Shown one piece after another: positions 3,253 to 58,807 of a stretch of DNA of 64,000 bases. The notes under the pieces were generated by a model. It worked only from the letters and a program-made list of their open reading frames with translations. It searched no databases and was not told the origin of the DNA. Location: the NCBI RefSeq assembly GCF_014334325.1, contig NZ_JACSET010000001.1:93777-157776 (forward strand), written 5' to 3'. Source of the DNA: Treponema sp. Marseille-Q4130 (lineage in GTDB: Bacteria > Spirochaetota > Spirochaetia > Treponematales > Treponemataceae). How positions within the stretch are numbered: the stretch's first letter is position 1; every line of letters starts with the position of its first letter. Position numbers and translations under genes: made by a program.

Positions 3253-3309
3253 TATATATACTCGCAAAAAATACCGAAAGTTCACTTTTATTTTTGAGGT
3301 TTTTTGTTA

Positions 3310-33669: not shown

Positions 33670-36045
33670 ATGATGAAAAACGTATTTGAAAAAATCAAAA
33701 TGAACGGGAGAAAAATTGCAGCTTCTCCCGTAACGTTGAGGGCGTTGTACCTCGTCGTGTTGCTCGAACTTATGCTGTTCCCTTTCAGTATGACCGGCAT
33801 GGATTTGTTCAATCCGGAACAAACTTCCCGCCTGCTGTTTCCGTTTACCGTATTGTTTTCGGGTGCGGTAACGAAAGGTTTTAATTTTTTTTATATTTGC
33901 TGCCTTTCGTTTTTTCTTTTGCCGATAACGTTTATAGTCATCGCGCTGTCATTTTTCCGAAAAGAAATAACCGAGCTCATCATATATCTGTGTTTGCTTG
34001 TTTCGCTGACGTTTTACTTGGCGGCGTCCGTTTGCGGAATCATTTTATTTGCGAATACCGCCCGCTGGTTTTCTTCGCTGAGTCCCCTCGCGTATGCGGC
34101 GTTTTTTTCGGCTTTGATCTTCCATGCGTGTCTCATCGCCGTCGGGATCGTTTCCATAAAAGCGCAAAACGAATCTTATGTCGAATATAAAAAATTATTA
34201 AAAGAAGAAGAAAAAAAAGAAGCCGTCATTCGGAAAAAGGCGGCGGAAAAATTGAAAAAACGGAAAAAGACCGAAGCCGATGCAGATGAAAATTTTACCG
34301 CCGTAAAAACCGCTTTGAGCGAATGGGTACATAGCGTGCGGACTGTTAAAATCAAAACGCACATAAAAATCAAGATAACCGTCGTTATTCTTTTGACGAT
34401 CCTTATCATTCTTTCGACGTTTATCTACACCGATTTGAAAAATTATAAAGCGCTTGTTTCGCAGACCGCCGACAATACGGGTAAAAATCTTGCGGAGCAG
34501 GTTGCCGCGATTTACGATTTTTCCGACGGACTCCATACGAAGATAAGCGCTTTTCTCGAAGGCATCAACAAAACCAATGCGTCTTCGCCTTTTCCCTGTC
34601 AAAGAGCGGATATCATTACGACGAGCGCCAAATCGAATGTTTTTCTCGAAGCGATCGATTATGCTACCGAGTTGCCGGAATTCGACGTTTTTTCGTATAC
34701 GACGGCTGCAGGGGAGATCCATAAAATCCATCAGGAAGAAAAAAGGATTTTACCGTCGGAAGCCATTCAGTACATAGTCCACTTCCAAGACATAAACACG
34801 AGAAGCAAGCCCATTTACAAAGAGGGAAAAGACACGTGCATCTATGTATATCCCGTAACATTTTCGAGAAAAGACGGCCAAAAGCTCGTGGGATTTTCGG
34901 TCGTTACGTATTTGAAAGAAATTTTAAACCGACCGTATTTTCAGGCAAAAGTTTTTATCCTTTCGATCTCGGTGATTTTTTTCTATGCTTCCATAATCAT
35001 CACGCTGTTCCTCGCTGACTTTATAGTAAATCCCGTTCTCTTCCTTTGCGGCAATATCAGACGAACGGCGAACAGTCTCAGCGATATGCTTGCCGGAAAT
35101 GCAAAGATCGAATCGGGTAAATTGATTTTTGAAGAAACCGTCAATACCAACGACGAAATAAAAAATCTCTCCGTCGAAATAAACAATATCGTATCGCTTG
35201 TGCGCGGTATGCTTCCCTATGTGTCGTTTCACACGGTGCAGAACGCGGAAAAAAAAGCGGGCCGTTTGAGCACGACGCGCGAGTTGTGTTTTTTGTTTAC
35301 GGATATCCGCGGTTTTACGAGCCTTTGTGAAAAGGTACAGCCGAAAGAAGTTATACGGCTTTTAAATCATTACCTCGATATCGAAACGAAAATTATTTTC
35401 GATAACGGAGGCGATGTCGATAAATATGTCGGCGATGAAATAATGGCGTTTTTTTCCGGAGCGAAAAAGGAAATCAACGCGTGCAAAGCCGCAATGGAAA
35501 TTCGCAAAGCGATGTACCGCGAAAAACAGCTCGCGCTCGAAAAGGGGGCGGATGCTATCGCCGTCGGTATCGGGATCAATTCGGGTTCCGTCGTATTCGG
35601 TTCCGTCGGTTCGGAAACGCGCAAAGATTTTACGTCGATCGGCGATACCGTAAACCTTGCGGCGCGCCTTGAAAGCGCGAATAAGGAATACGGCTCGAAA
35701 TCGATTATTTCAAGGGCGGTGTATGAAAAGCTCGGAAAAGATTTCGTGTGCCGCGAACTCGACTACATAACGGTAAAAGGAAAAACGAAACCCGTGCGTA
35801 TCTATGAAGTGCTGCAGGCGAAAGAAGCTGTGACCGATAAAATTCTCGATTTAAAACGGAAATTTGAAACCGGTTTGTCGTATTACCGAAAAATGGAATG
35901 GGATTCTGCAGAAAAATACTTTTCCGAAAACGCGGAAAAATACAACGATGCGCCGTCAAAAGTATTTTTGAAAAGGATTGCCCGCTATCGGTTATCGCCG
36001 CCGAGCAAGGAATGGAAGGGCGTTTTTGTAATGACGGGAAAATAG
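33670..36045 (+). CDS. Membrane-bound class III adenylate/guanylate cyclase
   Basis: 791 residues. N-terminal membrane module with about five spans (25-160), a lysine/glutamate-rich coiled coil (about 168-205), another span (about 232-252), an extracytoplasmic sensor region (about 253-425), a span (about 428-450), a HAMP-like segment and the cyclase domain (about 535-700). Both metal Asp residues are present (FLFTDIRGFTS and YVGDEIMAFFSG), and SIGDTVNLAARLESA supplies Asn and Arg, so one polypeptide can form an active homodimer. A TPR-like tail closes it. The double membrane region is unusual. Monocistronic. Confidence 0.9.
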   Translation: MMKNVFEKIKMNGRKIAASPVTLRALYLVVLLELMLFPFSMTGMDLFNPEQTSRLLFPFTVLFSGAVTKGFNFFYICCLSFFLLPITFIVIALSFFRKEITELIIYLCLLVSLTFYLAASVCGIILFANTARWFSSLSPLAYAAFFSALIFHACLIAVGIVSIKAQNESYVEYKKLLKEEEKKEAVIRKKAAEKLKKRKKTEADADENFTAVKTALSEWVHSVRTVKIKTHIKIKITVVILLTILIILSTFIYTDLKNYKALVSQTADNTGKNLAEQVAAIYDFSDGLHTKISAFLEGINKTNASSPFPCQRADIITTSAKSNVFLEAIDYATELPEFDVFSYTTAAGEIHKIHQEEKRILPSEAIQYIVHFQDINTRSKPIYKEGKDTCIYVYPVTFSRKDGQKLVGFSVVTYLKEILNRPYFQAKVFILSISVIFFYASIIITLFLADFIVNPVLFLCGNIRRTANSLSDMLAGNAKIESGKLIFEETVNTNDEIKNLSVEINNIVSLVRGMLPYVSFHTVQNAEKKAGRLSTTRELCFLFTDIRGFTSLCEKVQPKEVIRLLNHYLDIETKIIFDNGGDVDKYVGDEIMAFFSGAKKEINACKAAMEIRKAMYREKQLALEKGADAIAVGIGINSGSVVFGSVGSETRKDFTSIGDTVNLAARLESANKEYGSKSIISRAVYEKLGKDFVCRELDYITVKGKTKPVRIYEVLQAKEAVTDKILDLKRKFETGLSYYRKMEWDSAEKYFSENAEKYNDAPSKVFLKRIARYRLSPPSKEWKGVFVMTGK

Positions 36046-44452: not shown

Positions 44453-46327
44453 ATGAGCAATACGAATTCCATCAGGCTGATCGAAAAATTCACGCCGATC
44501 ATGAGAGCGCTTTTTTTAGCGGCGTTTTTTTTGCCGCTTTTGACTTTCGGTCCCTTTCTCATTTTTATCCGTGCATTTTCCGCGGCGGATATGATGAAAA
44601 TGGCGCTCGCTCCGATGTGCTTTGTAGGCGTCGTCATCTTCAATGTTATCATTCCTTTTTGTCTTTATACCTATTATCAAAATGCGATCTGCAAATACGA
44701 CGGCTCCCAAGCGTCGGTGGTGACGACGAACCGCAAATTGAAGAATTTTGAAACGATCAGTATCTTGGCGATAAACCTGAACGGACCGGCTATGTTTGTA
44801 TTTTCGACGATCAGCTGCCGCATACACGGTATCGAATACGAACCGCTCGTGTGGTTTTTGGTTGCGGAAGGTACGACGTTTTTGTTCGGTCTGCTTATGT
44901 ATATTCCGTTTTCCGAAATATTGGAAGAGCACATCCACAATCTCCCCATAAAGCGGGAATATATAACGCTTTCGGTTATGGCGAGGAATTCGTTTATCAC
45001 GGGCTTCAGTTTTTTAGGTGTTATATTTTTGGTGCTGTCGCCGATGTTTTCGAAAGGAAACGCCGATTTGGATACGATGCCGCTTTTTCTGACTCGCGTT
45101 TTGCCCGTCCTCATCATAACGAGCGTCATCGCTATTTTGGATTCCTTCCTTTTTGTAAACAGCATGAATAAGCGTATCAGGATCATAACGAAATTTTCAT
45201 CGTATCTTTCCAAAAACGATTATACGCAAAAGAGTCTTGTCGTAACGAGCCGCGACGATTTCGGCGTGCTGACGGCGGACTTAAATCAATTTTACAACGT
45301 CATGCGCCGCCTGCTCCGCGCCATTATGAGCACGGTCGCCGTTTCCACCGATTCGGCGGGAAATCTTGCCGACGGCGTGAGCGAAACGTCTTCGAGTATT
45401 ATGCAGATCGTCGCAAATATCGAATCGGTCAAGAGCAGGATCGTCAATCAGGCGGCGGGGGTCGAAGAAGCGCAGGCAACCGTCAAAAGTATGGTCGAAT
45501 ACATCAACGATCTCGACAAAAATATTGACCGGGAAAAGGTGAGCATCGATTCGTCTTCGACTGCGGTCGAACAGATGGTTGCAAATATCCGCTCGGTGAC
45601 GAATACGCTGAAAGCGAGCGGATCCGCCGCGCAAAAACTCAGTGATGCATCGAATAACGGGCGGGCTGCAATAGAGCAGGCGGTCGATCGTGCGCGCGAT
45701 ATCCTCGAGCGATCCGAAGGTTTGCTTGAAGCGAGCAATATCATCCAGAGCATCGCCGATCAGACGAACCTGCTCGCGATGAACGCCGCGATCGAAGCGG
45801 CACATGCGGGGGAAGCGGGCAAAGGCTTTTCCGTCGTTTCGGACGAAATCCGAAAGCTCGCCGAACAGTCGAACGAACAAGGTAAAACGATCAGCGAACA
45901 GTTGCAGGAACTGCAGGAATCGATTCAGCAAGTGTCGAACGGTACGACGCAGGTAAAAAATCAATTCGATACGATTTTCTCGCTTGCCGACGACGTTACG
46001 GAACAAAACCGCACTGTTATGTCCGCGATGCAGGAACAGTCGGCCGGCAGCTCTCAAGTGCTTGAAGCGATGACCGAAATCAAATCGACGATCGAGCTTG
46101 TCGCAAAGGGGTCGGCAGAGCTGACGAACGGCGGCAAGCAGATTGCAGCGGAGATGACCGCCCTTGCCAATTTGACGGAAGAGATCAACGGCGCAATGAG
46201 CGAAATGTCGAGCGGGGCGCAGTCGATCATCCACTCCGTGCAGAGTGTCGATTCCGCAACGACGGCGAATCGCGACAACGTACAAAAGCTTTCCGACGAA
46301 ATAAATACCTTTACGGTCAACCGCTGA
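44453..46327 (+). CDS. Methyl-accepting chemotaxis protein with polytopic membrane domain
   Basis: 624 residues; GAGAGG precedes the ATG. The N-terminal 245 residues contain about six membrane spans and no sizeable periplasmic loop, so ligand sensing would be within the membrane or indirect. A HAMP-like stretch (about 245-300: [24 protein letters not shown]...[21 protein letters not shown]) leads to the coiled-coil signalling domain, whose hairpin tip is [44 protein letters not shown]. It signals to CheA/CheW. Monocistronic and ended by a hairpin with a T-run. Confidence 0.95.
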
Positions 46328-46412
46328 TCGAACGCCGCGTGCGCGCGGCCGTGAGATTTTGTAAACTCGTCCGTGTGCATCGAGTCTGTCCTCTCGGCGT
46401 ATCTGCAAGGGG

Positions 46413-46445
46413 CTGTTCAAAAACTTCAGTTTTCGGACAGTTTTT
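46413..46445 (+). terminator. Terminator of the chemoreceptor gene (dispersed hairpin family)
   Basis: CTGT-TCA-AAAC, TTCA loop, GTTTT-CGG-ACAG (46413-46440) and then five Ts. Same AAAAACTTCAGTTTT core as hairpin 1 at 7944. Confidence 0.75.
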
Positions 46446-46523
46446 CTTGATGTACGCGCGCCCTGCATCTTCAAGCGTGCCGTCACGTAAAATTTAATAA
46501 TTTAACAAATTCGTATTTAATAA

Positions 46524-46552
46524 TTGCGCTTTCCGGAAATTTACTGTATCAT
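46524..46552 (+). promoter_or_regulatory. Promoter of the cyclase/surface operon, probable leaderless mRNA
   Basis: TTGCGC (46524-46529), 17-nt spacer, TATCAT (46547-46552), then only 7 nt to ATG 46560 and no ribosome-binding site. Confidence 0.6.
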
Positions 46553-46559
46553 TCTTATT

Positions 46560-48464
46560 ATGAAAGAAGCGGAGAAAGACGATAGTCGACAATACGTCAA
46601 ATTTTCAATCGGAGCGAAGCTCGTCGTCATCATTTCGGTGCTGACGATTTTATCGCTCGGTGTCATTACCCTCCTGGTTACATGGTTCGGCGGGCAGGAT
46701 GTCAGGATCAGTGCGGAAGAAAATAACCGTACCGTAAACGCACAAGCTGCGAGTTTGGCGGAAAAGGATCTGTCGTCGCTGCGCGCGAATGCGTTTTTGC
46801 TGTTGGATATTTTAAACCGAACGGCGAGCACAAGTTCCTTTGCGAAGGAAGCGTCGGATTTTTATTTCGAGCGCAATCCGTCGGTTGCCGCCGTTTTGGT
46901 CACCGATTCGAGACGCGCAGGCGGTCTGGAGCGAAAGCTTTTAAGCACGCCGTTTTTTCTATCGAACGAATTGGATCCTTCGCTTGTCGATACGTTTTTG
47001 GAGCAGTCTCGCGATGCGATGGTGCAGGCTGAGCGCGGCATCACCTGCGTTATAAACGCATCTCCCGTATTCGATATCCCCATGCTCGTGCTGTGCTGGC
47101 CGTACACGGAAAAAGGTTTGCAGCAGGGTTTGGCTGTTTTCTTTTCCGCAGAAAAACTTTCCGACAGCTTCGGCGCGGGCACACTGCAGACGACGTATTT
47201 GGTAAACGGAGAGGGCGATATCCTGATCCATCCCGATTTCAATTTGGTAAAGAACGGCGCGAATGTCGGTAACTTTCCGCTTTTTATGCAGATGCTCGAA
47301 AACGGCGATACGAACCGCCAGCTTCTCGTTACAGACAACGAAGGCAAAAAATATTTCGGATCGTACCGCCGTCTTTCTTTCGGAGAGCTTGCCGTTTTGA
47401 CGACCGCTGATGCCGCCGTGCTTTTGCAGCCGGTCGCGGAAACGACAAAGCGCAACATCTATTTGAGCATCATCGTTCTGTTTCTCTCGGTCATGTTCAT
47501 TTGGTTTTTTTCCAAGTCGATCAGCCGTCCGGTAAAAACGCTCGCACGCGCCGCAGAGAGGATCGAGCAGGGAGAGTTCGAACTCGATTTGAAACCGAAG
47601 ACGCGGGACGAACTCGGGCTTTTGACGTCGAGCTTCGTAAAGATGGGCAAGGGGCTTGCGGAACGCGAGCGGCTCAAAGATTCGTTCGGATGCTTTATCA
47701 ATAAAGAAATCGCCGAACTTGCCATGCGCGGTGAGCTTGCACTCGGAGGGGAAACGAAAGAAACCACGATTTTCTTTTCCGACATCCGTTCGTTTACCGC
47801 CATCTCCGAAAAACTTACGCCGGCGGAAGTCGTCGAATTCTTGAACGAATATATGACATCGATGGTCGAATGCGTCAACATGACGCACGGCGTCGTCGAT
47901 AAATTTATCGGAGACGCGATCATGTGCGTGTGGGGCGCTCCGACATCCACCGGAAGTCCGAAAGAAGACGCGCTCAACTGTATCCGTGCGGCGCTTCGCA
48001 TGAGGGCTGCGCTCATAATCTTTAACCGTGGACGGGGCGGCGACAAAAAGCCGGTCATCCGTATCGGCTGCGGTATCAATTCCGGTCCCGTCGTTGCAGG
48101 TCAAATCGGTTCGACGCAGCGCATGGAATACACGGTCATCGGAGACGCAGTCAACCTCGCTTCCCGCACGGAAGCGCTCAATAAACCGATGGGAACGGAC
48201 ATCCTCATCACCGAATACACGTACGCGCTTGTACGCGACAGCGTGCTCGTCGAAGAGATGCCGTCGGTTACCGTCAAAGGCAAAGAAAAGCCGCTTCGCA
48301 TGTTCGCCGTCGTCAATATGCCCGCCGAAGACGGCATCCCCGGCGCAGGCGCGAAAGGTCCGAAGTCTCTTGCGCAGATCAGGCAGGTGCTCGGAATTCC
48401 GACTCCCGATTTTGCAAAGGTAAATCTCAATGAAGACGAAAAGAAATACAAAATACAGTCGTGA
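46560..48464 (+). CDS. Membrane-bound adenylate/guanylate cyclase, first gene of the surface operon
   Basis: 634 residues from ATG 46560; a longer frame would start before the promoter. Span 1 (about 21-42), an extracytoplasmic sensor of about 255 residues with a Cache-like look (NGEGDILIHPDFNLVKNGANVG is typical), span 2 (about 299-317), HAMP (to about 370) and the cyclase domain (about 400-590). Metal Asp residues lie in FFSDIRSFTAI and KFIGDAIMCVWGAP; VIGDAVNLASRTEALN supplies Asn and Arg. Its last 35 nt overlap the FecR gene. Confidence 0.92.
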   Translation: MKEAEKDDSRQYVKFSIGAKLVVIISVLTILSLGVITLLVTWFGGQDVRISAEENNRTVNAQAASLAEKDLSSLRANAFLLLDILNRTASTSSFAKEASDFYFERNPSVAAVLVTDSRRAGGLERKLLSTPFFLSNELDPSLVDTFLEQSRDAMVQAERGITCVINASPVFDIPMLVLCWPYTEKGLQQGLAVFFSAEKLSDSFGAGTLQTTYLVNGEGDILIHPDFNLVKNGANVGNFPLFMQMLENGDTNRQLLVTDNEGKKYFGSYRRLSFGELAVLTTADAAVLLQPVAETTKRNIYLSIIVLFLSVMFIWFFSKSISRPVKTLARAAERIEQGEFELDLKPKTRDELGLLTSSFVKMGKGLAERERLKDSFGCFINKEIAELAMRGELALGGETKETTIFFSDIRSFTAISEKLTPAEVVEFLNEYMTSMVECVNMTHGVVDKFIGDAIMCVWGAPTSTGSPKEDALNCIRAALRMRAALIIFNRGRGGDKKPVIRIGCGINSGPVVAGQIGSTQRMEYTVIGDAVNLASRTEALNKPMGTDILITEYTYALVRDSVLVEEMPSVTVKGKEKPLRMFAVVNMPAEDGIPGAGAKGPKSLAQIRQVLGIPTPDFAKVNLNEDEKKYKIQS

Positions 48465-51372
48465 GTCCGTATCGGCCGTATTGCAGGACATCTTCGTTGT
48501 GCTCTTTTCCTTGTCCGTTATCGGCTATACCGCGTTTTTATTTTTTAATAATTTAAATAAGACGATCGAGCGTACCGACAAAGTGCCGGTTGCGTCCATT
48601 TCGTACAAATACAAAAGCGTGCAGCGCAAATTCCTCGACCGCTCGGTGTGGGACAGGCCGGTGCAGTATTCTCCCGTGTATAACGGCGACATCATTCGAA
48701 CCGCGCCCGCCTCCGAAGCGACGATTTATTTTCCAGATCAAAACGTCATAAACGTCGGCGCGAACACGATGATCCAGATTTTCAAACCGACGCAAAAAGA
48801 CGAAACGGACGTGCAGATCGCTGAAGGCAACGTTTCCGTACAGACCGTCGGTTCGAAAGTTGCGGTCAAAGCGGACAATGTCTCCGTCGCTGTCGAAAAG
48901 GATTCCGTGCTGCACGTGCAGAAATTCGAAAGCGCGGAAAAAGAGGCGGGAAGCGTTTTATCTTCGCCGGATGCAAGCGCAGCTGCGGCAGGGATTGCAG
49001 GAGACACTGCGCGCAAAAGTACCGCTCAGGGAGAAAATGCCGCTCCGGGCGGAGCGCTTCGTTTGACCGTCGAAAAGGGAGCGGCCGCTATGACGACGCT
49101 GGAGGGCGGAAGTACCGATGTACGTGCGGGGCGGAACGTTGCCGCGATCGCCGCAGAACCGACCGTACTTTCCGAGGGAGCTGTCGTACAGACGGGAAAC
49201 AATGCCGCAGTGTCCATGATACGCCCCGCGTCCGGAGCAAGGCTTATCAATCAATATAAACGCCTGCTTCCGGTATCGTTTGCGTGGAGCAGTTCTTTTT
49301 CCGACGATACCGAACTCGTTTTGGAAACGTCGCGGAGCCGCGATTTTGCAAAAGCGAGCAGGCTTTCGGTCAAGGGATTGCAGGAAGTGACGCTCGATGA
49401 AGAAGCGGGAACAGTGTATTGGCGGATCTATGCGGCCGAGCGGGGAGCGCGCGACGAATCTGCGGATTCGGGAAAGTTTACCGTTGTGGACGCTCCTCCT
49501 CCCGTTCCGCTAGAGCCTGTGCCCGATCGCCGCTTCGTGTACAAAGAGACGATGCCTACGGTGCGCTTTTTGTGGAAGGGCAACGACGTCTCTTCGTCGT
49601 ACATGCTCGAAACCGCCGACAATCCCGATATGCGAAACCCCGCAGTGGTCAAACAAGTGAGCGGGGAGACGGTAACGCTGCCGAATCTGCGCGAAGGGGT
49701 GTGGTATTGGCGGGTGACGCCGAATTATATCATCGATGAAAGCATCCGTCCGAAGCCTTCTGTTGTGTCCGCATTTTCGATCGAAAAGCAAAAAGAGTTG
49801 CCTCCTATCAAACTGATCGCACCGGGTGCGATCGCCGATACGGCCGAAGGAAAAAGTGTCGCCTTTTCGTGGAAGCGCGTAAACGAAGCGTCAAAATATC
49901 GGCTCGTCGTCGCAAAAAGCGAATCGATGAGCGATACGGTCGTCGAGCGGACAAGCGATATCAATTATTATGAATTGAAAAACGCGGCGAAGGCGCTTCC
50001 GAACGGGATCTATTATTGGACGGTGGAAGGGCTCGATAAAAACGGCGAGCACTTGACGGCGAGCGCACCTTCGGCATTTCGAAGCCGCGACAGCGAAGTC
50101 GTTTTGCGCTCGCTCTTTCCTCCTGACAATTACGTGTTGGCCGATACGCTGTGCCTCGACACGCGCTTTACGTGGAAGACGAATTTGGAAGGGGAGCAGC
50201 GCTTTCAAGTGTCCGCGTCCCCCGATTTTTCAAATCCCGTACTCGACGTAAAAGCGCTGGGTTCCGGCATCGACGGCACGGTTTTGCCGCAGGGCGATTA
50301 TTTTTGGCGCGTGTCGGTTAAAAGCGAATTCGAAGCGCTTGAAACGCCGCCGAAACGATTGACCGTAGCGCCTGCGCTTCCTTCGCCCAAACTCGTCGGC
50401 ATCGGGGAGGTCGTCGTCATTCACCCGCAAAAAAAGAATACTTTTGCGTGGACTGCCGTTCCGGGCGCCGATTATTATCAAGTGAAGATCACCAAGCCCG
50501 GTTTGGATTCGGAGCCGCTGTATGAAAATCTGTACATCACCGATACGGGCGTAGAGATAGCGCTGCAGTCGATACAGGACGGCGATTACATAATGAGCGT
50601 ACAGGGCTTTGCGTCTTCGACGCTGACGTCGAGCAGGCGCTACAGTTACGCGGCCGATAAAGCCTTTATGCTCAAGCATTTGCGTCCGGTAGAACTCGTG
50701 TCGCCCGCGAACAATGCGAGGATCGGCGGTGTGGATGCGGCGCTGAACCCCGTCCGACTGCAGTGGTCTTCCGTCGAAAAGCCTGTAAAGAGCCGACTCG
50801 TGCTCGAAAAGGCGGGACAGCGGGGGAGCGTGCTTTCCGTTTCCGATCCTTCTTTTTCCGTAAAGCTTCCATCCCTCACTGCGGGAAACTATCGGTGGAG
50901 GGTCATCGCATCTACCGCAGACGGATTTGACATATCGTCCATGAAAGACAGCAGCTTTACCGTTTTGCCCATACCGCCGCTTGAAAGAGTTGCATTGGTA
51001 TTTCCTTCAGACGGCGAAACGTTCGGTGTAAGCTTTTTCAAAGCGAACCGGAGCATCGTGTTCCGCTGGAAAAAGAACGGAGAAGCGACGCATTACGTGA
51101 TTCGGCTCTACAACGAAAAAAAGCAAAAGATTTTCGAGCGCGAGCTGAGCGCCGAGACATCCTCTCGTGCGGACGGCGACTGTGCGTTCGAATTCGGCGA
51201 TCTTGAGAGATTGTCGCGCGGAATTTTTTATGCGGAAGTTGAGCCTGAACGGCGGCTGAAAGACGGCATGCTGTTCCAAAGCGGCATCGTTTCGAGCCGC
51301 CGCTTCGTCATCGATTTGCCGAAAGCGGCATCGGTGGAAACGGATGCACCGGGGGTACTCTATGGCAAATAA
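48430..51372 (+). CDS. FecR-domain protein with Fn3-like repeats
   Basis: 980 residues, starting inside the end of the cyclase gene. A single N-terminal span (about 20-42) anchors it with the bulk outside the cytoplasm. A FecR-like domain follows (about 75-165: YNGDIIRTAPASEATIYFPDQNVINVGANTMIQIF, IAEGNVSVQTVGSKVAVKA). The rest holds about five repeats of an Fn3-like unit with the pattern FxWK...YxLxxA...GxYYWxV (FAWSSSFSDDTELVLETSRS, VRFLWKGNDVSSSYMLETAD, VAFSWKRVNEASKYRLVVAKS, FAWTAVPGADYYQVKITK). It looks like a periplasmic peptidoglycan- or partner-binding scaffold. It has no cytoplasmic sigma-binding tail. Confidence 0.82.
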   Translation: MKTKRNTKYSRESVSAVLQDIFVVLFSLSVIGYTAFLFFNNLNKTIERTDKVPVASISYKYKSVQRKFLDRSVWDRPVQYSPVYNGDIIRTAPASEATIYFPDQNVINVGANTMIQIFKPTQKDETDVQIAEGNVSVQTVGSKVAVKADNVSVAVEKDSVLHVQKFESAEKEAGSVLSSPDASAAAAGIAGDTARKSTAQGENAAPGGALRLTVEKGAAAMTTLEGGSTDVRAGRNVAAIAAEPTVLSEGAVVQTGNNAAVSMIRPASGARLINQYKRLLPVSFAWSSSFSDDTELVLETSRSRDFAKASRLSVKGLQEVTLDEEAGTVYWRIYAAERGARDESADSGKFTVVDAPPPVPLEPVPDRRFVYKETMPTVRFLWKGNDVSSSYMLETADNPDMRNPAVVKQVSGETVTLPNLREGVWYWRVTPNYIIDESIRPKPSVVSAFSIEKQKELPPIKLIAPGAIADTAEGKSVAFSWKRVNEASKYRLVVAKSESMSDTVVERTSDINYYELKNAAKALPNGIYYWTVEGLDKNGEHLTASAPSAFRSRDSEVVLRSLFPPDNYVLADTLCLDTRFTWKTNLEGEQRFQVSASPDFSNPVLDVKALGSGIDGTVLPQGDYFWRVSVKSEFEALETPPKRLTVAPALPSPKLVGIGEVVVIHPQKKNTFAWTAVPGADYYQVKITKPGLDSEPLYENLYITDTGVEIALQSIQDGDYIMSVQGFASSTLTSSRRYSYAADKAFMLKHLRPVELVSPANNARIGGVDAALNPVRLQWSSVEKPVKSRLVLEKAGQRGSVLSVSDPSFSVKLPSLTAGNYRWRVIASTADGFDISSMKDSSFTVLPIPPLERVALVFPSDGETFGVSFFKANRSIVFRWKKNGEATHYVIRLYNEKKQKIFERELSAETSSRADGDCAFEFGDLERLSRGIFYAEVEPERRLKDGMLFQSGIVSSRRFVIDLPKAASVETDAPGVLYGK

Positions 51373-52537
51373 ACGAAGTACTGCGGTGCTTTTGTGCCTG
51401 CTTTCGCTTTTGCCCCTTGCCGCGCAAAACAGAGGTGGTCGCCCCGATCCGGACAAGCACTATTTTATCCAAGAAGGCGAGGACGGCGCGGTGCTCTATC
51501 AGCGTCTTTCATGGGAAGCGATCAACGACATATTCGGCTTTGAATTCCTGCTCGAGGAAAGGGATGCGTCGGGCGCCTGGCACGAGATCGATAAAAAAAT
51601 CGTGCAGGATAATTTTATCGATGTGTCGCTGCCTCCGGGAAACTACCGCTATAAAGTAACCGTCATCAACCTGCTTGAACAAAAGGAAGCGTCGAGCGCG
51701 TATCGGAACTTCGACATATTGATCGCCTATCAGCCGGATGTCGAATCCGTGACGCCGCGCCTCATCTATCTCGACGAATTTTTCGACGGAAAATTTACCG
51801 TTACGGGCGGCAATTTTTTCGACGATACCGTTTTCGTTTTTGAAAAGGCGGGCGGAGGAACGATAAAGCTTGAGCCTTCCGAAGTGTCGAAGGACGGCAA
51901 ACGTGCGCGATTCGAATTGAATACGAACAGATTCCAGCCGGGTACTTACGTCTTTGTTGCACGCGATAAAAGCGGTCTTACCGCCAAAAGCGAAGACGTA
52001 ACGTTCCGCTTCCAAAAGCCGGTGGATACTTACGTTTCGCTCGGCTACGCGTTTACGGGCTTTACGGGAGAGAGCGTATTCAAAACGTATTATGACCGCA
52101 CCGTCGCTCCTTTGGGCGGCGTCTTTCGCCTTACCGTGTTGCCGTTTAAAAGAACCTACGGTCACTTCGGGTTTAACCTGAATTACAGTGCGGCAATGCT
52201 GCGGAAACAGCTGGACGATTATACGCTCGACGGCGCTCTCATGCTGACCCACCTTAACGCGGCATACGTATATCCGATCATCAAGCACCGCTTGAATCTC
52301 GACATACACGCCGGAGTGGGGGCAGCATTTTTAATGCAGAGCAAATTTTCGTTCAGCGGCGTAGAGAGCCCCGCGTATTGGTACTGGGGGTTGGATGCGG
52401 ACGCGGGAACGGCGCTGCAGGTTTTCGTGTATAAAAAGATGTATCTTGAGTTTAACGTCGATCACTTTTTCGTGTTTCGTGACGGTTTGCCGAAGTATAT
52501 GTTTCAACCGCAGTTTTCCGTCGGCTGGATGTTCTAA
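51362..52537 (+). CDS. Exported TIG-like plus beta-barrel outer-membrane protein
   Basis: 391 residues from ATG 51362, overlapping the FecR gene stop by 11 nt. The signal peptide TAVLLCLLSLLPLAAQN is cleaved near AAQ. An Fn3-like segment (GNYRYKVTVINLLEQKE) and an IPT/TIG-like domain (about 130-205: VESVTPRLIYLDEFFDGKFTVTGGNFFDDTVFVFEK) precede a C-terminal 190-residue aromatic- and Gly-rich barrel (TYVSLGYAFTGFTGESVF ... FQPQFSVGWMF, ending in Phe). I infer an outer-membrane anchor for the operon. Relatives in T. pallidum may be near TP0483; that is recollection, not a search. Confidence 0.78.
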   Translation: MANKRSTAVLLCLLSLLPLAAQNRGGRPDPDKHYFIQEGEDGAVLYQRLSWEAINDIFGFEFLLEERDASGAWHEIDKKIVQDNFIDVSLPPGNYRYKVTVINLLEQKEASSAYRNFDILIAYQPDVESVTPRLIYLDEFFDGKFTVTGGNFFDDTVFVFEKAGGGTIKLEPSEVSKDGKRARFELNTNRFQPGTYVFVARDKSGLTAKSEDVTFRFQKPVDTYVSLGYAFTGFTGESVFKTYYDRTVAPLGGVFRLTVLPFKRTYGHFGFNLNYSAAMLRKQLDDYTLDGALMLTHLNAAYVYPIIKHRLNLDIHAGVGAAFLMQSKFSFSGVESPAYWYWGLDADAGTALQVFVYKKMYLEFNVDHFFVFRDGLPKYMFQPQFSVGWMF

Positions 52538-52562
52538 GGACTTTTTAATGAGGGAGTCCGGT

Positions 52563-55500
52563 ATGAAGCGATTCGGAAAAAACCTTATACGCGCCGCCCT
52601 GTGTGCGACCGGCATCACGCTGCTTTTTTGCGTGACCTCTTGTAAAGAGCTTTTTGCGGACATAGAAGAGAATTTTTCATATTGGACGTCCGGAGTTGCT
52701 GCGACGGATTCCGTCGTCGATGTGTCATACCAAAAGAGTGAGGACGGGACTCTGTGCATACCGTCCTCGGTCGACGTGCCGGTTACGATCAAACTGCTTA
52801 ATCCCAAAAAATTTAGGCTCGTTATGCCCGCATCGTCTTCGGATGAAAAGGTTATACGGTTCTCGCATCTTTCGCCGCAGCCTATGTACGGCACCGACTA
52901 CACACTGCAGCAAACGGCAGACGATGTGCTGACGCTCACGTACAAAAGCGCTTTTTTGAAGCGGCACGAATGGGGCAACGGCAATATCGGAGCTGACATC
53001 AGCTTCATCTCAACCGACGGCAGAGTATTCGGCAAAGGTTTCAGCATAAACATAAGGGTGAATACCGCTCCGGTTTTGGAAGCTGCGGGAATCGCAAAAA
53101 CGCGAACGGCGGATCCGGACGGCAACTATTACTATGTGCTTTTATTCCGCGTAAAAGACATGGACTCCCCGATAACCGACAGCAGCGTACACAAAGACAT
53201 TACGGCGCTGAACGTTACGGCAGGCGGTGTTCCGTCTGAGATTCCGTTGAGCTTTAACTCAGCCAAAAGGGATTTTGAGAGGGGCGAAAACCTTTTAGAG
53301 GCAGGCGACGTACAAAAGCTTGACCCGTCCGATCCTGAGCTCCCAAGCGGCAGTTGGATTCTCCGTTTAAAAACCGATGTCAAAGTAGGGGGCGCGGCAA
53401 AAGAATACGCCGTCAGCGTAAAAGACGCGCAGGGTTTAAGTTCAGCGGTCATACAGACAAGCACTCAAAAAACCAAACTTGCCGTTGCGGAATTGCTTGA
53501 CGGCTTAAGCCCGATAACGGGAACAGCGGAAACTAATCCGAAAAACTTTCCGGGCATAAGCGGAAAAACGATTAGCGCAAAAGCGCTCGGCGGTGCCCTC
53601 ATAACGGGAACAGTCGAAAAGTACAACGGTGCCGACTGGAATCAGGCATTTACCGTAAGCGGCATAACGCCCGTTTCGATACACTTACCGGCGCTCGACA
53701 CGGGCGAAACCGAAGCGTTCTACAAAATTATACTGAAGGCGCAATTAACCGGCTATGACGACAGCGATGAACAAACATTCTTTGTAAAACTGTTACGGCA
53801 GGAAGTTCCCGTTCTTAAAATAAAACAGGATTTTGCCGGTGCCAATGATTTGCACAGTATTTCCGCAGCGGCTAAAGGCTATGTTAGCGAAGACATCATA
53901 AGCGATGCAGGGTACTATCACAGTACCGCAACTGCGCTTGGTATTTACAACAAAGGCGGTACGGCAAAGCTTTCGATTACCGTGAACGCAGGTGCAACGG
54001 TAAAGTATAAACTGAACAGCGGAAGCGAAATGACAACTGGCGGAGAAATAGCTATAGCCGCAGGCCCAAACGAACTCGAAGTATGGGCAGTAAGGGGCGG
54101 GGTGGAAGGCCCTCACACTACCGTGCATATTAAGCTGATAAATGCCGTTACCGCTTACGGCGAACTTAAAAATACCGTACAAAATGCACCCGAACAGGGT
54201 ACGGGACCCGGTCAGCATGATTATAGCACTTTCTTTATAGACATTAACATCGGTACCGACCTGACCGCCGATACCGAAACAGCCGTAATCGGCGGCAAAA
54301 AACTGATTCTGTCGAGTTCGTCAAGCGGTACCGTCCGCACCGTCAACGCAGGCGGCAACAGGCGCATCTTTAAAATAAGCGATACCGGCTCGCGGCTTGA
54401 GCTTCAGGACATAAAGCTTGAAGGAGGCTATGCTGCCGACGGTAAAGGCGGGGCGGTTTGTGTCGAAGCCGGAGGCGCTCTTGGGCTGACAGATAAAACC
54501 GTCATTACTCCGTCAACGGGAAGCGATGTAAACACGAGAGGCAAAAACGATGTGTATCTTGCAAACGGCACCCAAATCATTCTGGACGGTCCTTTGCTGG
54601 GCACCACTCCAACCAATCCTATTGTTGCCCGCATTACGCCCGAAACTTACTCCGAAACCGTACAAGTGCTTGGCGGCGGTAATTTAGGAGGGGGCACACC
54701 GCCTGCCTACACCAAGTTCACCGTAACGCAGCCGACAGATTCGGACTCTATATGGAAAATAAAGAGCGACGGAAAGCTGCAGAAAATCTCAAGCACCATA
54801 AACGGCTCGGATAGCCTTGCATGGAAAAAGCTGTTGGATGCCGTGAGGGAATTCCCCGAAGGCAGTACCATCGTCATAGACGGTCTCATACAGGCGACAA
54901 ACGAAGCCGGTAACTTCGGCGAAATCGTCATCAACAAAAACCTGAAGATAAAGGGCAAAACCGGAGCAGGCACAGACATACTCGATGCAAACGCAAGTAC
55001 GCTCGGCACGAATGCGCACCGCATCTTCAAAGTGGAAAACGGCAAAACGCTCACCCTTGAAAAACTGACGCTGAAAAACGGCAAAGACCAAAAAGGCGGC
55101 GGTATTTATGCAGGTACAGGAACAACGGTCAATCTGGATATTCTGACTACTATCCAAGAGTGCAAAGCGACAGACGGTGGGGCAATTTATAACGATGGTG
55201 GAACCCTTACAATAAAAGGCGCAAGTGTCATAAAAGGCAACGAAGTGACAAACAACGGCGGCGCATTTCTCATAAAAAGCGGTTCGCTTCATATGGAAAA
55301 CAATTGTATTGTCGAGCAGAATAAGGCAAAGAAAGGCGGCGGTATTTATATAACGAACAGCGGTACCGCTACGATACTTTACTGCCGAGCAAGTGAAAAC
55401 GAAGCGCAAGATGATGGCGGCGGAGTGTATATTGACGGCGGTTCTCTGACGCTTGAGGGGTCAACTATCGGCGGACAGCAATTCTATGACGGTACTGCCC

Positions 55501-58500
55501 CCGATAAAACAAAAGGCAACAAAGCGAAAAAAGGCGGCGGCATCTATCTTACCGGAAGCGGCGTAGTTTGTACGATGACCGGCGGGAAAGTTTCCTACAA
55601 TAAGGCGAGCGAAGACGGCGGCGGTGTGTATGCAGATACTGCAACACTTAAGATGAGCGGAAGCGCAACCGTTAACCCGAATTCTCAAAATCAAACCGTC
55701 TATTTAAAGAACGGCGCGAAGATACACATTGAAGGCGCGCTGACGGGGGCGGCTCCCGTTGCGTGCATTACGCCTGAATCCTACGCAGTGTCCGTGAAAG
55801 TGCTCGACGGAGCTATAACAGCGGGCACGGCGCCGAATCAAAACTATACCAAGTTCACCGTAACGCCGAACGGCACCGAGGAGTGGGAAATAAAGAGTGA
55901 CGGATATTTGATAAAAGTGCCGGTAATCATAGACGGCACAAAGCCGCTTGCATGGAAAAAGCTGCTCGATGCCGTTGCCGACGCACAAGACGGCGACGTT
56001 ATCACCATAACAGGGGCCGTACAGGCGAAAAACGAAGGCACGGGTTCCAATGCCAACAGGGGCGAAATCGTCATCAACAAAAGCTTGACGATAAAGGGCA
56101 AAACCGGAGCGACATCAGACATACTCGACGCAAACGCAAACAATCTCGGCTCGGACGCGCACCGCATCTTTAAAGTCGCAAGCGGCAAAACGCTCACGCT
56201 TGAAAACCTGACGCTCAAAAACGGTCAGGGATCCGAAAGCGGAAATACGGACAACGGAGGTGCCGTGTACGTAAAAGGCGGAACCGTCGAAATGACGCTC
56301 TGCACCCTTACGGGCAACAAGGCAGACAAAGGCGGCGCCGTGTATGCGGAAAAGGACGGCAGTACGAGAGCTGCCGTAACGCTTAAAGGCTGCACTATCG
56401 GCGGCACAGGTACGAACGACGCAAACAAGGCGATCTTCGGCTCGGATCAAGAAGGCGGCGGCCTTTATATCGGAGAGCTCTGCACATTGAAGCTTGACGA
56501 TGCCGGCTCTACCGGCTGCACGGTTCAGGGTAATACGGCAATGAAAGGTGGCGGTATCTATGCAGCAGGCATTGCCCAAATAAAAGGCACAAGCAAAATA
56601 GTGAACAATACGGCAGACCATTTGGGCGGCGGCATATATTCGGAAGGAAGCCTGACCTTATCGGGTGATGTACTGATAAAGGGCAATAGCGCATCCGACC
56701 AGTCGGCCTTAGGCGGCGGCGTGTATGTAGGCGGCGGCACCTTTGCGATGAGCGAACGTGCAACCGTTACTCCGTCTACCGGCGAAAATACGGATAAACC
56801 GCGCGAAAACGACGTGTATTTGGCTACGGGAAAAAAGATAACCCTTTCAGGCGCTCTTTACCCGCAAGGCGGCGGAAAAGCCGCACGCATTACGCCGCAA
56901 AATTACACTTCAGATACGCAAGTGCTTGACGGAGCGATAACAGAGGGCACAGTGTCGGATCAAAACTACACCAGGTTCACCATAACGCCGCAAGAAGACA
57001 GCGGTAATACATATCATTGGGAAACAGATAAGGACGGCAAGATAGTGCGTCTTGTAGAGGGGGGGGGCACAAAGCCGCTTGCATGGAAGGCGCTTAAAGA
57101 TACTGTCGCCGCCGCTCAGCCGGGCGACACCATCGTCATAAAGTTCACAATCACAGCGACAAAGGATCCCGGTAACTTCGGTGAAATCGTCATCGACAAA
57201 AACCTAACGATAAAGAACACATTAGGAGGCATACTCGACGCAAACGCAAGCGCTCTCGGCTCGGACGCACATCGCATCTTTAAGGTGGAAAGCGGCGCAA
57301 AGCTCACCCTTGAAAGAGTGGGACTCAAAGGCGGCAAGGCAACAGGATCGGGCGATCAAGGCTTCGGCGGGGCACTATACATAGAGGGTACCGTCGAGAT
57401 GACAGGCGCCGTCATTTATGGCGGCAACACGGCAATAAAAGGCGGCGGCGTGTATGTAACCGGTTCCGGCGCAGTGTTAACAATGGATAGTTGCCAAATA
57501 CACGGTAATATAGCACGATCACCGTCAACGCATCTTGAAGTGATGGGCGGCGGCGTGTGCGTTGCAAACGGCGCAACGTTCAATATGAATAACGGAAGCA
57601 TATATGAAAATCAGGCGATTGCCTCATCCGTTGCAGGTTCAAAAGCGATGGGCGGCGGCGTGTGCGTTGCGGGCAGCGGCAGCACGTTTGTTATGAAAGA
57701 CAGCAGCGAAACCAGGATCTACGGCAATGAAGTTAAAAAATCCGGTGGCACAAATATTACGACGATAGGCGGCGGCGTATGCGTGGTAGATGGCGCTTCG
57801 TTCACAATGGAAAAAGGTTATATAACCGAAAACAAAGCTGTCGAAGGAACTGTGCCGTACTTCGGAAAAGTCGGCGGCGGCGTGTGCGTGGGCGGGCACG
57901 GAAGTGCCGACGACACCGGTTATACCGACGATAACGCAACGTTTACGATGAAAGGCGGCATGATCCGCAAAAACGAAGCCGGGGCAGGCGGCGGCGTTGC
58001 CGTTATGAGTAAGGCATCCTTTATCATGAAAGGCGGTACTATCGGCGGTGAGGAAGCGTACGCAAACAAAGCGACCGGAACCGGAAACGACGGCTTCGGC
58101 GGCGGCGTTGCCGTCATGCACGGTACCTTCACTATGGAAGGTGAAAGCAGCATCGTAGGCAATACGGCAGACGGCTCAGGCGGCGGCATATACGGCATGA
58201 AGATGAACGGCAATGAAGGAGAAATCATCATCAAAGGCTCAAGCATAATAAAACGCAATACAGCGAATGTATCGAATAGCCCTGCAGGCGGCGGAATATA
58301 TGCATCTCATAAACTGACCGTAGAGGGTTCGGCACGGATAGAAAATAACAAAGCGCCGAACGGCGATGGCGGCGGTATTGTCTGTACCAATAATGCACAA
58401 GTTGACTTTGCCGGCGGTACGATTACCGGCAACACTGCAACACGCTATGGAAAGGGCGTGTATATCAGCCCCTTGTCTTCGGGTGCATTTAATATGTCAG

Positions 58501-58775
58501 GCGGTGCAAAAGCAGATACAAACAACGACGTGTATTTGGACGCAAGCGGCTCCGATAGTGCAAAGATCACCGTTAACAGTTCGCTCACCCCTGCAGGCGG
58601 CACGGCGGCGCGTATTACGGTACCGGATGCAAATTATCAGACGACTACGCAAGTGCTTACGGGCAGCGCAGTAGGCTCGGAATACGGCAAGTTTACGGTA
58701 ACGCCGCAAGACTCAGGCGGCGGCAATGTGCAGAACTGGAAAGTAGACAGTAGCGGCAACTTGCAAACGCAGTAA
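52563..58775 (+). CDS. Giant modular surface lipoprotein with beta-helix repeats
   Basis: 2070 residues from ATG 52563 (GGGAG with 6-nt spacing). The signal ends in the lipobox CVTSC (Cys 27). Residues about 30-600 look like Ig/cadherin-type beta domains. From about 640 on there are roughly 25 GG(G/A)(I/V/L)(Y/C) turns typical of a right-handed parallel beta-helix, as in chlamydial Pmp-like or Bacteroidetes adhesins. These are organised in blocks opened by LAWKKLLDAV...GEIVINKxLxIK...ILDANA..LGxxAHRIFKVxxGxxLTLExLxLKxG and closed by ITPxxY...VL...Y.KFTVTP. Openers lie at residues about 752, 1129 and 1506. No C-terminal autotransporter is seen. A G9 tract lies at 57059-57067. Confidence 0.85.
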   Translation: MKRFGKNLIRAALCATGITLLFCVTSCKELFADIEENFSYWTSGVAATDSVVDVSYQKSEDGTLCIPSSVDVPVTIKLLNPKKFRLVMPASSSDEKVIRFSHLSPQPMYGTDYTLQQTADDVLTLTYKSAFLKRHEWGNGNIGADISFISTDGRVFGKGFSINIRVNTAPVLEAAGIAKTRTADPDGNYYYVLLFRVKDMDSPITDSSVHKDITALNVTAGGVPSEIPLSFNSAKRDFERGENLLEAGDVQKLDPSDPELPSGSWILRLKTDVKVGGAAKEYAVSVKDAQGLSSAVIQTSTQKTKLAVAELLDGLSPITGTAETNPKNFPGISGKTISAKALGGALITGTVEKYNGADWNQAFTVSGITPVSIHLPALDTGETEAFYKIILKAQLTGYDDSDEQTFFVKLLRQEVPVLKIKQDFAGANDLHSISAAAKGYVSEDIISDAGYYHSTATALGIYNKGGTAKLSITVNAGATVKYKLNSGSEMTTGGEIAIAAGPNELEVWAVRGGVEGPHTTVHIKLINAVTAYGELKNTVQNAPEQGTGPGQHDYSTFFIDINIGTDLTADTETAVIGGKKLILSSSSSGTVRTVNAGGNRRIFKISDTGSRLELQDIKLEGGYAADGKGGAVCVEAGGALGLTDKTVITPSTGSDVNTRGKNDVYLANGTQIILDGPLLGTTPTNPIVARITPETYSETVQVLGGGNLGGGTPPAYTKFTVTQPTDSDSIWKIKSDGKLQKISSTINGSDSLAWKKLLDAVREFPEGSTIVIDGLIQATNEAGNFGEIVINKNLKIKGKTGAGTDILDANASTLGTNAHRIFKVENGKTLTLEKLTLKNGKDQKGGGIYAGTGTTVNLDILTTIQECKATDGGAIYNDGGTLTIKGASVIKGNEVTNNGGAFLIKSGSLHMENNCIVEQNKAKKGGGIYITNSGTATILYCRASENEAQDDGGGVYIDGGSLTLEGSTIGGQQFYDGTAPDKTKGNKAKKGGGIYLTGSGVVCTMTGGKVSYNKASEDGGGVYADTATLKMSGSATVNPNSQNQTVYLKNGAKIHIEGALTGAAPVACITPESYAVSVKVLDGAITAGTAPNQNYTKFTVTPNGTEEWEIKSDGYLIKVPVIIDGTKPLAWKKLLDAVADAQDGDVITITGAVQAKNEGTGSNANRGEIVINKSLTIKGKTGATSDILDANANNLGSDAHRIFKVASGKTLTLENLTLKNGQGSESGNTDNGGAVYVKGGTVEMTLCTLTGNKADKGGAVYAEKDGSTRAAVTLKGCTIGGTGTNDANKAIFGSDQEGGGLYIGELCTLKLDDAGSTGCTVQGNTAMKGGGIYAAGIAQIKGTSKIVNNTADHLGGGIYSEGSLTLSGDVLIKGNSASDQSALGGGVYVGGGTFAMSERATVTPSTGENTDKPRENDVYLATGKKITLSGALYPQGGGKAARITPQNYTSDTQVLDGAITEGTVSDQNYTRFTITPQEDSGNTYHWETDKDGKIVRLVEGGGTKPLAWKALKDTVAAAQPGDTIVIKFTITATKDPGNFGEIVIDKNLTIKNTLGGILDANASALGSDAHRIFKVESGAKLTLERVGLKGGKATGSGDQGFGGALYIEGTVEMTGAVIYGGNTAIKGGGVYVTGSGAVLTMDSCQIHGNIARSPSTHLEVMGGGVCVANGATFNMNNGSIYENQAIASSVAGSKAMGGGVCVAGSGSTFVMKDSSETRIYGNEVKKSGGTNITTIGGGVCVVDGASFTMEKGYITENKAVEGTVPYFGKVGGGVCVGGHGSADDTGYTDDNATFTMKGGMIRKNEAGAGGGVAVMSKASFIMKGGTIGGEEAYANKATGTGNDGFGGGVAVMHGTFTMEGESSIVGNTADGSGGGIYGMKMNGNEGEIIIKGSSIIKRNTANVSNSPAGGGIYASHKLTVEGSARIENNKAPNGDGGGIVCTNNAQVDFAGGTITGNTATRYGKGVYISPLSSGAFNMSGGAKADTNNDVYLDASGSDSAKITVNSSLTPAGGTAARITVPDANYQTTTQVLTGSAVGSEYGKFTVTPQDSGGGNVQNWKVDSSGNLQTQ
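54816..57116 (+). repeat. Three opener modules spaced exactly 1131 bp
   Basis: The Leu codon of LAWK begins at 54816, 55947 and 57078, so both intervals are 1131 bp (377 codons). Nucleotide identity is high across each opener but falls in between. Closing ITP...KFTVTP modules lie near 54628-54770, 55765-55915, 56885-57050 and 58610-58770. Confidence 0.8.
57059..57067 (+). repeat. G9 homopolymer inside the giant lipoprotein gene
   Basis: Nine consecutive G in frame (Glu-Gly-Gly-Gly), at residue about 1500, between the second and third repeat blocks. A one-base slip would remove the last 570 residues. Confidence 0.8.
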
Positions 58776-58779
58776 AGTT

Positions 58780-58807
58780 ACCTCTAAAAACTGCAATTTT
58801 TAGAGGT
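58780..58807. repeat. Hairpin after the giant lipoprotein gene
   Basis: ACCTCTAAAAA and TTTTTAGAGGT, a perfect 11-bp stem with a 6-nt loop, starting 5 nt after the stop. The loop-side Ts are part of the stem and no T-run follows, so it may be a processing or weak termination site; it ends 6 nt before the fabF -35. Confidence 0.65.

Follow-up and report, generated by a model that had tools for sequence, protein, structure and literature searches.

What would tie an adenylate cyclase gene to the genes of three predicted envelope proteins? The question is raised by an operon of Treponema sp. Marseille-Q4130, in which a cyclase gene is followed by genes for a FecR-domain protein, a predicted outer-membrane beta-barrel protein and a large lipoprotein. 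The operon lies in a 64,000-nt stretch of contig NZ_JACSET010000001.1 (positions 93,777 to 157,776), hereafter the window. Our answer, to which we give a probability of roughly 0.55, is that it encodes a signalling chain running from the cell surface to cyclic AMP (cAMP). How spirochaetes sense surfaces is, to our knowledge, an open question, and Treponema pallidum has few signalling parts; such a chain would join its adhesin TP0483, its Fn3 protein TP0484 and its sole PF00211 cyclase to cAMP.

A three-gene core conserved across the phylum

The list of open reading frames (ORFs) and the sequence place four genes head to tail on the + strand at 46560-58775:

46560-48464, + strand: adenylate cyclase (ATG 46560; TTG 46524 is an alternative start)
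48430-51372, + strand: FecR-domain protein (FecR E 1.3e-7; overlaps the cyclase ORF by 35 nt)
51362-52537, + strand: predicted outer-membrane barrel protein (ATG 51362, with GGGGG upstream; ATG 51344 is an alternative start)
52563-58775, + strand: 2070-aa lipoprotein (ATG 52563, with AGGGAG upstream; lipobox VTSC, C27)

The FecR and barrel genes overlap by 11 nt, counted from ATG 51362, and 25 nt separate the barrel gene from the lipoprotein gene. The original prediction, made from the sequence alone, had given this layout correctly, including both overlaps and the gap.

Within the family, 93 of 145 genomes have a match to the barrel protein; within the phylum, a barrel profile matches 140 of 392. 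We compared 60 fetched stretches, which are mostly strong matches and not a random draw, and seven named loci (T. socranskii subsp. paredis and subsp. socranskii, T. lecithinolyticum, T. parvum, two of T. putidum, and T. vincentii). With L035 (coinciding with L043) and L042 (contained in L063) left out, this gave 68 barrel genes at E ≤1e-10, including that of the window. Across Spirochaetota, a cyclase gene and then a FecR gene stand upstream of the barrel gene, on the same strand and in the same order, at 62 of the 68. The cyclase and FecR ORFs overlap in 59 of these 62 pairs, by an identical 35 nt in 29 of them. The genes upstream of the cyclase, identified in 60 of 63 operons, belong to 37 families, the largest numbering seven; because the order is constant while the upstream genes are so diverse, we conclude that conservation covers the three-gene core but does not extend to its 5' flank. 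The same gene order at 62 of 68 barrel genes is more than chance. That the core genes are merely co-located, with no functional link, is scarcely credible given this constancy in many families of the phylum amid changing upstream neighbors. The four-gene order originally proposed holds for these three genes, whereas the lipoprotein gene is variable, being flagged beside the barrel gene in 27 of the 68 cases.

The six exceptions to the core order are L039, L056, L069, L080 (where the barrel gene is divergent from cyclase-FecR), L099 and L062, the single case in which FecR and barrel are fused in one ORF. Counted per genome in the 145-genome draw, FecR and barrel are both present in 91, FecR only in 16, the barrel only in 2 and neither in 36. 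At L079 (6928-9761), a tandem pair of barrel genes follows the FecR gene. A single cyclase-FecR ORF at L045 was rejected as proof of contact, as one A differs from a relative in a run of seven (around 6115 the run is one base shorter than in the relative, and sequencing error or slippage is possible). We likewise rejected the short cyclases of L061 and L062 as sensor-less enzymes: another ORF overlaps directly upstream, and they look like split frames. The score against the NCBIfam LIC11435 family (NF047756) was 39.8 bits, compared with a curated cut-off of 380 that none of the 392 phylum genomes passed, and an extension of the operon to Leptospira itself is therefore unsupported.

In the window, the operon follows the ORF of a methyl-accepting chemotaxis protein (MCP; 44453-46327) and precedes fabF, with a hairpin on either side:

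46406-46449, + strand: terminator-like hairpin with a T run between the MCP and cyclase genes (-15.4 kcal/mol, z -3.3)
58780-58807, + strand: hairpin between the lipoprotein gene and fabF (11-bp stem, z -2.5), without a long T run

The first is the likely 5' boundary of the operon and the second a possible 3' boundary. It had been noted that no promoter or terminator was seen between the genes, and our window scan indeed lists no such sites at the junctions, but its totals are at about the level of shuffled sequence or below (27 terminators found against 25.3 expected, 5 promoters against 11.0), so this absence proves little. The cyclase-FecR and barrel-lipoprotein junction sequences fold no better than shuffles.

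An adenylate cyclase with its own sensor

The first protein matches Guanylate_cyc and HAMP above the Pfam cut-offs and dCache weakly, below the cut-off (E 0.0045). Its architecture is that of a Cache-like sensor, predicted to be periplasmic, followed by HAMP and a class III catalytic domain, and its closest relative in the PDB is CyaB (3r5g, E 1.6e-34). A residue check found D420, K460, D464, T537, N544 and R548 in the window cyclase, which we take to be the two metal-binding aspartates, the adenine-selecting lysine and threonine, and the transition-state asparagine and arginine; all seven checked residues are retained in 62 of the 63 operon cyclases. By its sequence the enzyme would be an adenylate cyclase, with residues that fit cAMP rather than cGMP. 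The earlier proposal of a cyclase output, cAMP or cGMP, is therefore upheld as to the cyclase and narrowed in favor of cAMP. CHASE2 had no match to E 1 in the window cyclase, nor to E 0.01 in ten relatives from other families.

The sensor suggests an alternative that we regard as possible though rather unlikely, in which the cyclase would detect a small molecule by means of the Cache domain that it carries; cAMP would then control envelope or other proteins, while the FecR, barrel and lipoprotein genes would encode an adhesive or structural output or simply be neighbors. The Cache match is there, and in relatives reaches E 1.7e-9, yet under the curated cut-off; barrel-lipoprotein pairs without a cyclase exist; and a neighboring FecR gene in Sinorhizobium meliloti is described, in the available text of the paper, as controlled by the cAMP regulator and dispensable for signal perception (PMC5498481). 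Set against this are the tight phylum-wide linkage, with its overlapping reading frames, and the contact of a FecR domain with an outer-membrane receptor in the Fec system of Escherichia coli, as the same text describes it (PMC5498481).

The whole genome has four PF00211 cyclase matches, of which three fall in the window, at 3304-6033, 33670-36042 and 46560-48464, and the first of these ORFs also has an AAA_16 ATPase domain. The operon cyclase of L078 (2509-6045, 1179 aa) carries a GGDEF domain as well, possibly giving two cyclic-nucleotide outputs in one protein.

Predicted architecture of the FecR and barrel proteins

The second operon protein has a FecR domain (PF04773) over the cut-off at the E value listed above. 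Its structure model shows a helix at residues 14-42 and then strand repeats (mean pLDDT 64.3, pTM 0.33). Fn3 chains head the list of structural matches, which are long with a high root-mean-square deviation and thus show Fn3-like repeats only. The protein is predicted to be anchored in the inner membrane by a single N-terminal helix and to be otherwise periplasmic. A cytoplasmic anti-sigma N-terminus was not found: the membrane helix begins at residue 14, and there is no anti-sigma Pfam match at E 1. Over 62 FecR ORFs, the median start of the hydrophobic segment is at 17 residues (range 3-38).

The model of the third protein (pLDDT 74.0) comprises an N-terminal hydrophobic helix, an Fn3-like domain, a TIG domain at about 128-224 and an eight-strand barrel at 227-397, ending in GWMF. 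By structural match the barrel is OmpA/OmpW-like, and in the model it has the OmpA-type eight-strand fold; the protein stops at the last strand, with no Pfam match to the OmpA C-terminal peptidoglycan-binding domain. An MtxA_IG-like match is weak and below the cut-off (E 0.012).

A variable lipoprotein partner

The window lipoprotein consists of a conserved N-terminal domain and then PMP-like beta-helix repeats, which are below the cut-off in Pfam and score 18.0 against a cut-off of 15 in NCBIfam. Its gene contains direct repeats of up to 164 nt (54753-57334), the main ones about 1.1 kb apart, and its length may therefore vary by recombination. The N-terminal domain, with a lipid cysteine, a YW or YT motif and an LRNPxxYxL-like motif, is common to many genes that follow the barrel gene. 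It had no Pfam match in six members and no NCBIfam match in the one member scanned; the operon reading would give this family a use.

Whole-protein similarity links the lipoprotein to only 18 of the 68 barrel genes, too few, and an N-terminal profile was used instead. Its seed had 20 rows, five of them empty (L039, L048, L091, L092, L100), and the profile still found all five. Among the fetched loci it picks out 34 ORFs, including one duplicate, from which the 27 barrel neighbors were flagged. The lipoprotein of L095, 131 nt from the barrel gene, had been overlooked by the lipobox rule. The regions after the N-terminal domain vary, and include BspA-type leucine-rich repeats (L053) and a pectate-lyase-like domain (L054), both over the cut-off.

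At E 1e-5, the lipoprotein is matched in 75 of the 93 genomes with a barrel match vs none of the 52 without (Fisher p 2.7e-24), and within the Treponema of the draw in 42 of 51 vs none of 20 (p 4.4e-11). The barrel calls in this draw used one query protein, which missed the T. pallidum genome. In a set of 46 genomes, 39 had a lipoprotein match. In 27 of the 39 the number of copies exceeded one and rose as high as nine, counting some fragments. At six loci, that of T. vincentii and five closely related ones (L041, L050, L052, L057, L058, L059), no family gene follows the barrel gene, but copies lie elsewhere in the genomes. The lipoprotein is thus a variable fourth member of the operon, encoded elsewhere in other genomes. 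A second member in the window's own genome (C10, 65199-66203), in an open frame of 2416 aa, is found off the operon, some 28 kb ahead of the window.

Outside the closer treponemes, 6 of 18 loci (L064, L066, L068, L070, L071, L072) have a lipobox gene upstream of the cyclase gene, at a distance of no more than about 110 nt, and none of these genes is matched by the family profile; the upstream lipobox of L081 is doubtful, since the pattern is loose and its position too early. At L065 a lipobox gene, likewise unmatched by the profile, follows the barrel gene. A lipoprotein partner may thus be common and its kind variable.

The tie between family and barrel, together with the several copies in 27 of 39 genomes, also fits the idea that FecR and barrel are mainly an inner-to-outer-membrane tether or an assembly device for lipoproteins, whose state cAMP would monitor. 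The predicted Fn3-like rod and a barrel with periplasmic domains would suit such a device. We nevertheless consider it unlikely, as 18 of the 93 barrel-bearing genomes, and T. pallidum, have no detected lipoprotein.

A proposed relay from the surface to cAMP

From these results we infer the contacts, cellular locations, stimulus, direction and targets of a relay as follows. The surface lipoprotein and the outer loops of the barrel would meet something outside the cell. The barrel protein would contact the FecR protein in the periplasm, its Fn3-TIG domains meeting the Fn3-like rod of the latter. The FecR protein would in turn be held in the inner membrane by its single helix, next to the Cache-HAMP adenylate cyclase. 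Binding outside would alter cyclase activity, the signal running inward to cAMP, and cAMP would act via CRP-type and other cyclic-nucleotide-binding (cNMP-binding) proteins. An inward relay has two precedents, the NsrA-cyclase and YfiBNR systems compared below. Domains and models bear out, as a prediction, the earlier claim that the products span the envelope: the parts are predicted to reach from the cytoplasm to the outer membrane, with the lipoprotein probably outside.

It had also been suggested that the stimulus is mechanical, either surface contact or load. The envelope-spanning anatomy would accommodate this, but nothing noticed in the sequence favors force over a ligand; the load part of the proposal is unsupported, and we regard it as very doubtful.

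Several points weigh against a relay of this kind. No experiment on the operon proteins as a signalling unit was found in the literature searched. With a Cache-like sensor of its own, the cyclase might do without the other operon proteins; the FecR gene beside cyaD1 in S. meliloti is described as dispensable for signal perception in the text available (PMC5498481). The FecR structure model is weak by its pLDDT and pTM. L039, L056 and L099 are barrel-lipoprotein pairs without adjacent cyclase and FecR genes. The operon cyclase of L065 (3350-5230) has lost six of the seven residues, including metal, base and transition-state positions, and this operon may signal without cAMP synthesis. As to the lipoprotein, the co-occurrence tests ignore phylogenetic relatedness, the 18 barrel-bearing genomes and T. 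pallidum without a match count here too, and one of seven barrel-less genomes tried at E 1e-3 (G003) gave a marginal lipoprotein match (4.6e-4).

The operon in T. pallidum

The original prediction had proposed TP0483-TP0485 of T. pallidum as a place for comparison, and the core order is conserved there: cyclase, FecR and barrel genes follow one another as in the window (genome G020, locus L063). The third gene belongs to the family of the window barrel (profile E 4e-17) and is TP0483, since its ORF contains both fibronectin-binding peptides, at residues 274 and 316 from M48. TP0483 is reported as a fibronectin binder with two binding peptides, and these positions agree with those given in the accessible part of the report (PMC5421087). 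In an alignment of 35 barrel proteins the peptides correspond to residues 282-305 and 339-360 of the window barrel, approximately, as TP0483 is divergent; in the model these stretches lie at the hairpins of strands 3-4 and 5-6, which are predicted to face outward. The assignment of TP0484 and TP0485 rests on gene order and on the published view of TPANIC_0484 as an Fn3 protein. In contrast to the window, the FecR protein is shorter (671-aa ORF), the barrel is divergent and there is no match to the lipoprotein family.

The single PF00211 match in the T. pallidum genome is the operon cyclase, and there are five matches to cNMP-binding domains, vs eight in the window's genome. TP0262, a homologue of CRP, reportedly binds or acts on tpr promoters (PMC7864442, seen in part). 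TPANIC_0484 has been modelled as resembling Anosmin-1, an Fn3 matrix protein, with possible mimicry discussed in the portion available (PMC5956850). A FecR-Fn3 inner-membrane relay kept across many spirochaete families would be a simpler reading of TP0484 than mimicry. Among the literature matches listed, in a search covering few subscription journals, none treats TP0483-TP0485 as one unit, and TP0485 and TPANIC0485 are unmentioned.

We tentatively extend the surface-to-cAMP reading to a more general proposal, namely that surface adhesins might be the receptors of cAMP signalling in spirochaetes. TP0483-type barrels, joined in other treponemes by the lipoprotein family, might use the FecR-Fn3 rod to inform the cyclase of binding to host or neighbor surfaces. 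The sole recognizable class III cyclase of T. pallidum would then stand under a fibronectin binder, with TP0484 as the periplasmic relay.

Comparison with known systems

The system was originally thought to be undescribed. For the gene order this stands, in that no paper with it is among the matches listed (the search again covering few subscription journals); the linkage of FecR with a cyclase, however, is known from Campylobacterota and S. meliloti, and a gene with an immunoglobulin (Ig) domain beside a cyclase gene from magnetotactic bacteria.

FecI-FecR-FecA combines a periplasmic FecR domain with an outer-membrane barrel, a TonB-dependent receptor, and has a sigma-factor output. The operon shares the periplasmic FecR domain and the outer-membrane barrel, but has a cyclase output instead of a sigma factor and an eight-strand barrel instead of a TonB-dependent receptor; neither an ECF (extracytoplasmic function) sigma factor nor a TonB-dependent receptor was matched in the four operon proteins. 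YfiB of Pseudomonas is a lipoprotein. As described in the accessible text, YfiBNR has an outer-membrane sensor, a periplasmic protein and an inner-membrane cyclase in one operon; it differs in its product, cyclic di-GMP, and in the PAL domain of YfiB, and that text mentions no FecR, Fn3 or barrel (PMC3375315). The four window proteins gave no match to a YfiR-type protein, a GGDEF cyclase or a PAL-domain lipoprotein.

In S. meliloti, the available text describes NsrA as an outer-membrane receptor that requires the inner-membrane cyclases CyaK, CyaD1 and CyaD2 (PMC7529298), and smc02177, next in number to cyaD1 (smc02176), as having a FecR domain (PMC5498481). By description, the likeness is that of a beta-barrel outer-membrane receptor feeding inner-membrane adenylate cyclases, whereas CHASE2 is named for CyaD1, smc02177 is dispensable for perception and no Fn3 rod is mentioned in these texts (PMC7529298, PMC5498481). 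In the mtxA cluster of magnetotactic bacteria an Ig-like-domain gene precedes a CHASE2 adenylate cyclase gene, a pairing like that of the window barrel, with its weak MtxA_IG-like match, and the cyclase; unlike the operon, FecR does not occur in the paper's text as available (0 occurrences), nor is a TIG-barrel mentioned (PMC4439547). Burkholderia FecR genes are reported, in the part seen, with CHASE2 histidine kinases (PMC5192318).

The Campylobacterota cluster consists of cyclase, FecR, TPR and phosphodiesterase genes, for which the authors, in the text available, suggest one pathway (PMC9239204). There too an adenylate cyclase gene is grouped with that of a FecR-domain outer-membrane protein, but with CHASE2, a phosphodiesterase and TPR in place of the Cache-HAMP cyclase, barrel and lipoprotein found here (PMC9239204); no TPR protein or phosphodiesterase was matched among the four window proteins. 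FecR-cyclase clusters are thus already in print, and the spirochaete operon, of which TP0483-TP0485 represents the same core as the window, is a variant with an Fn3-TIG barrel.

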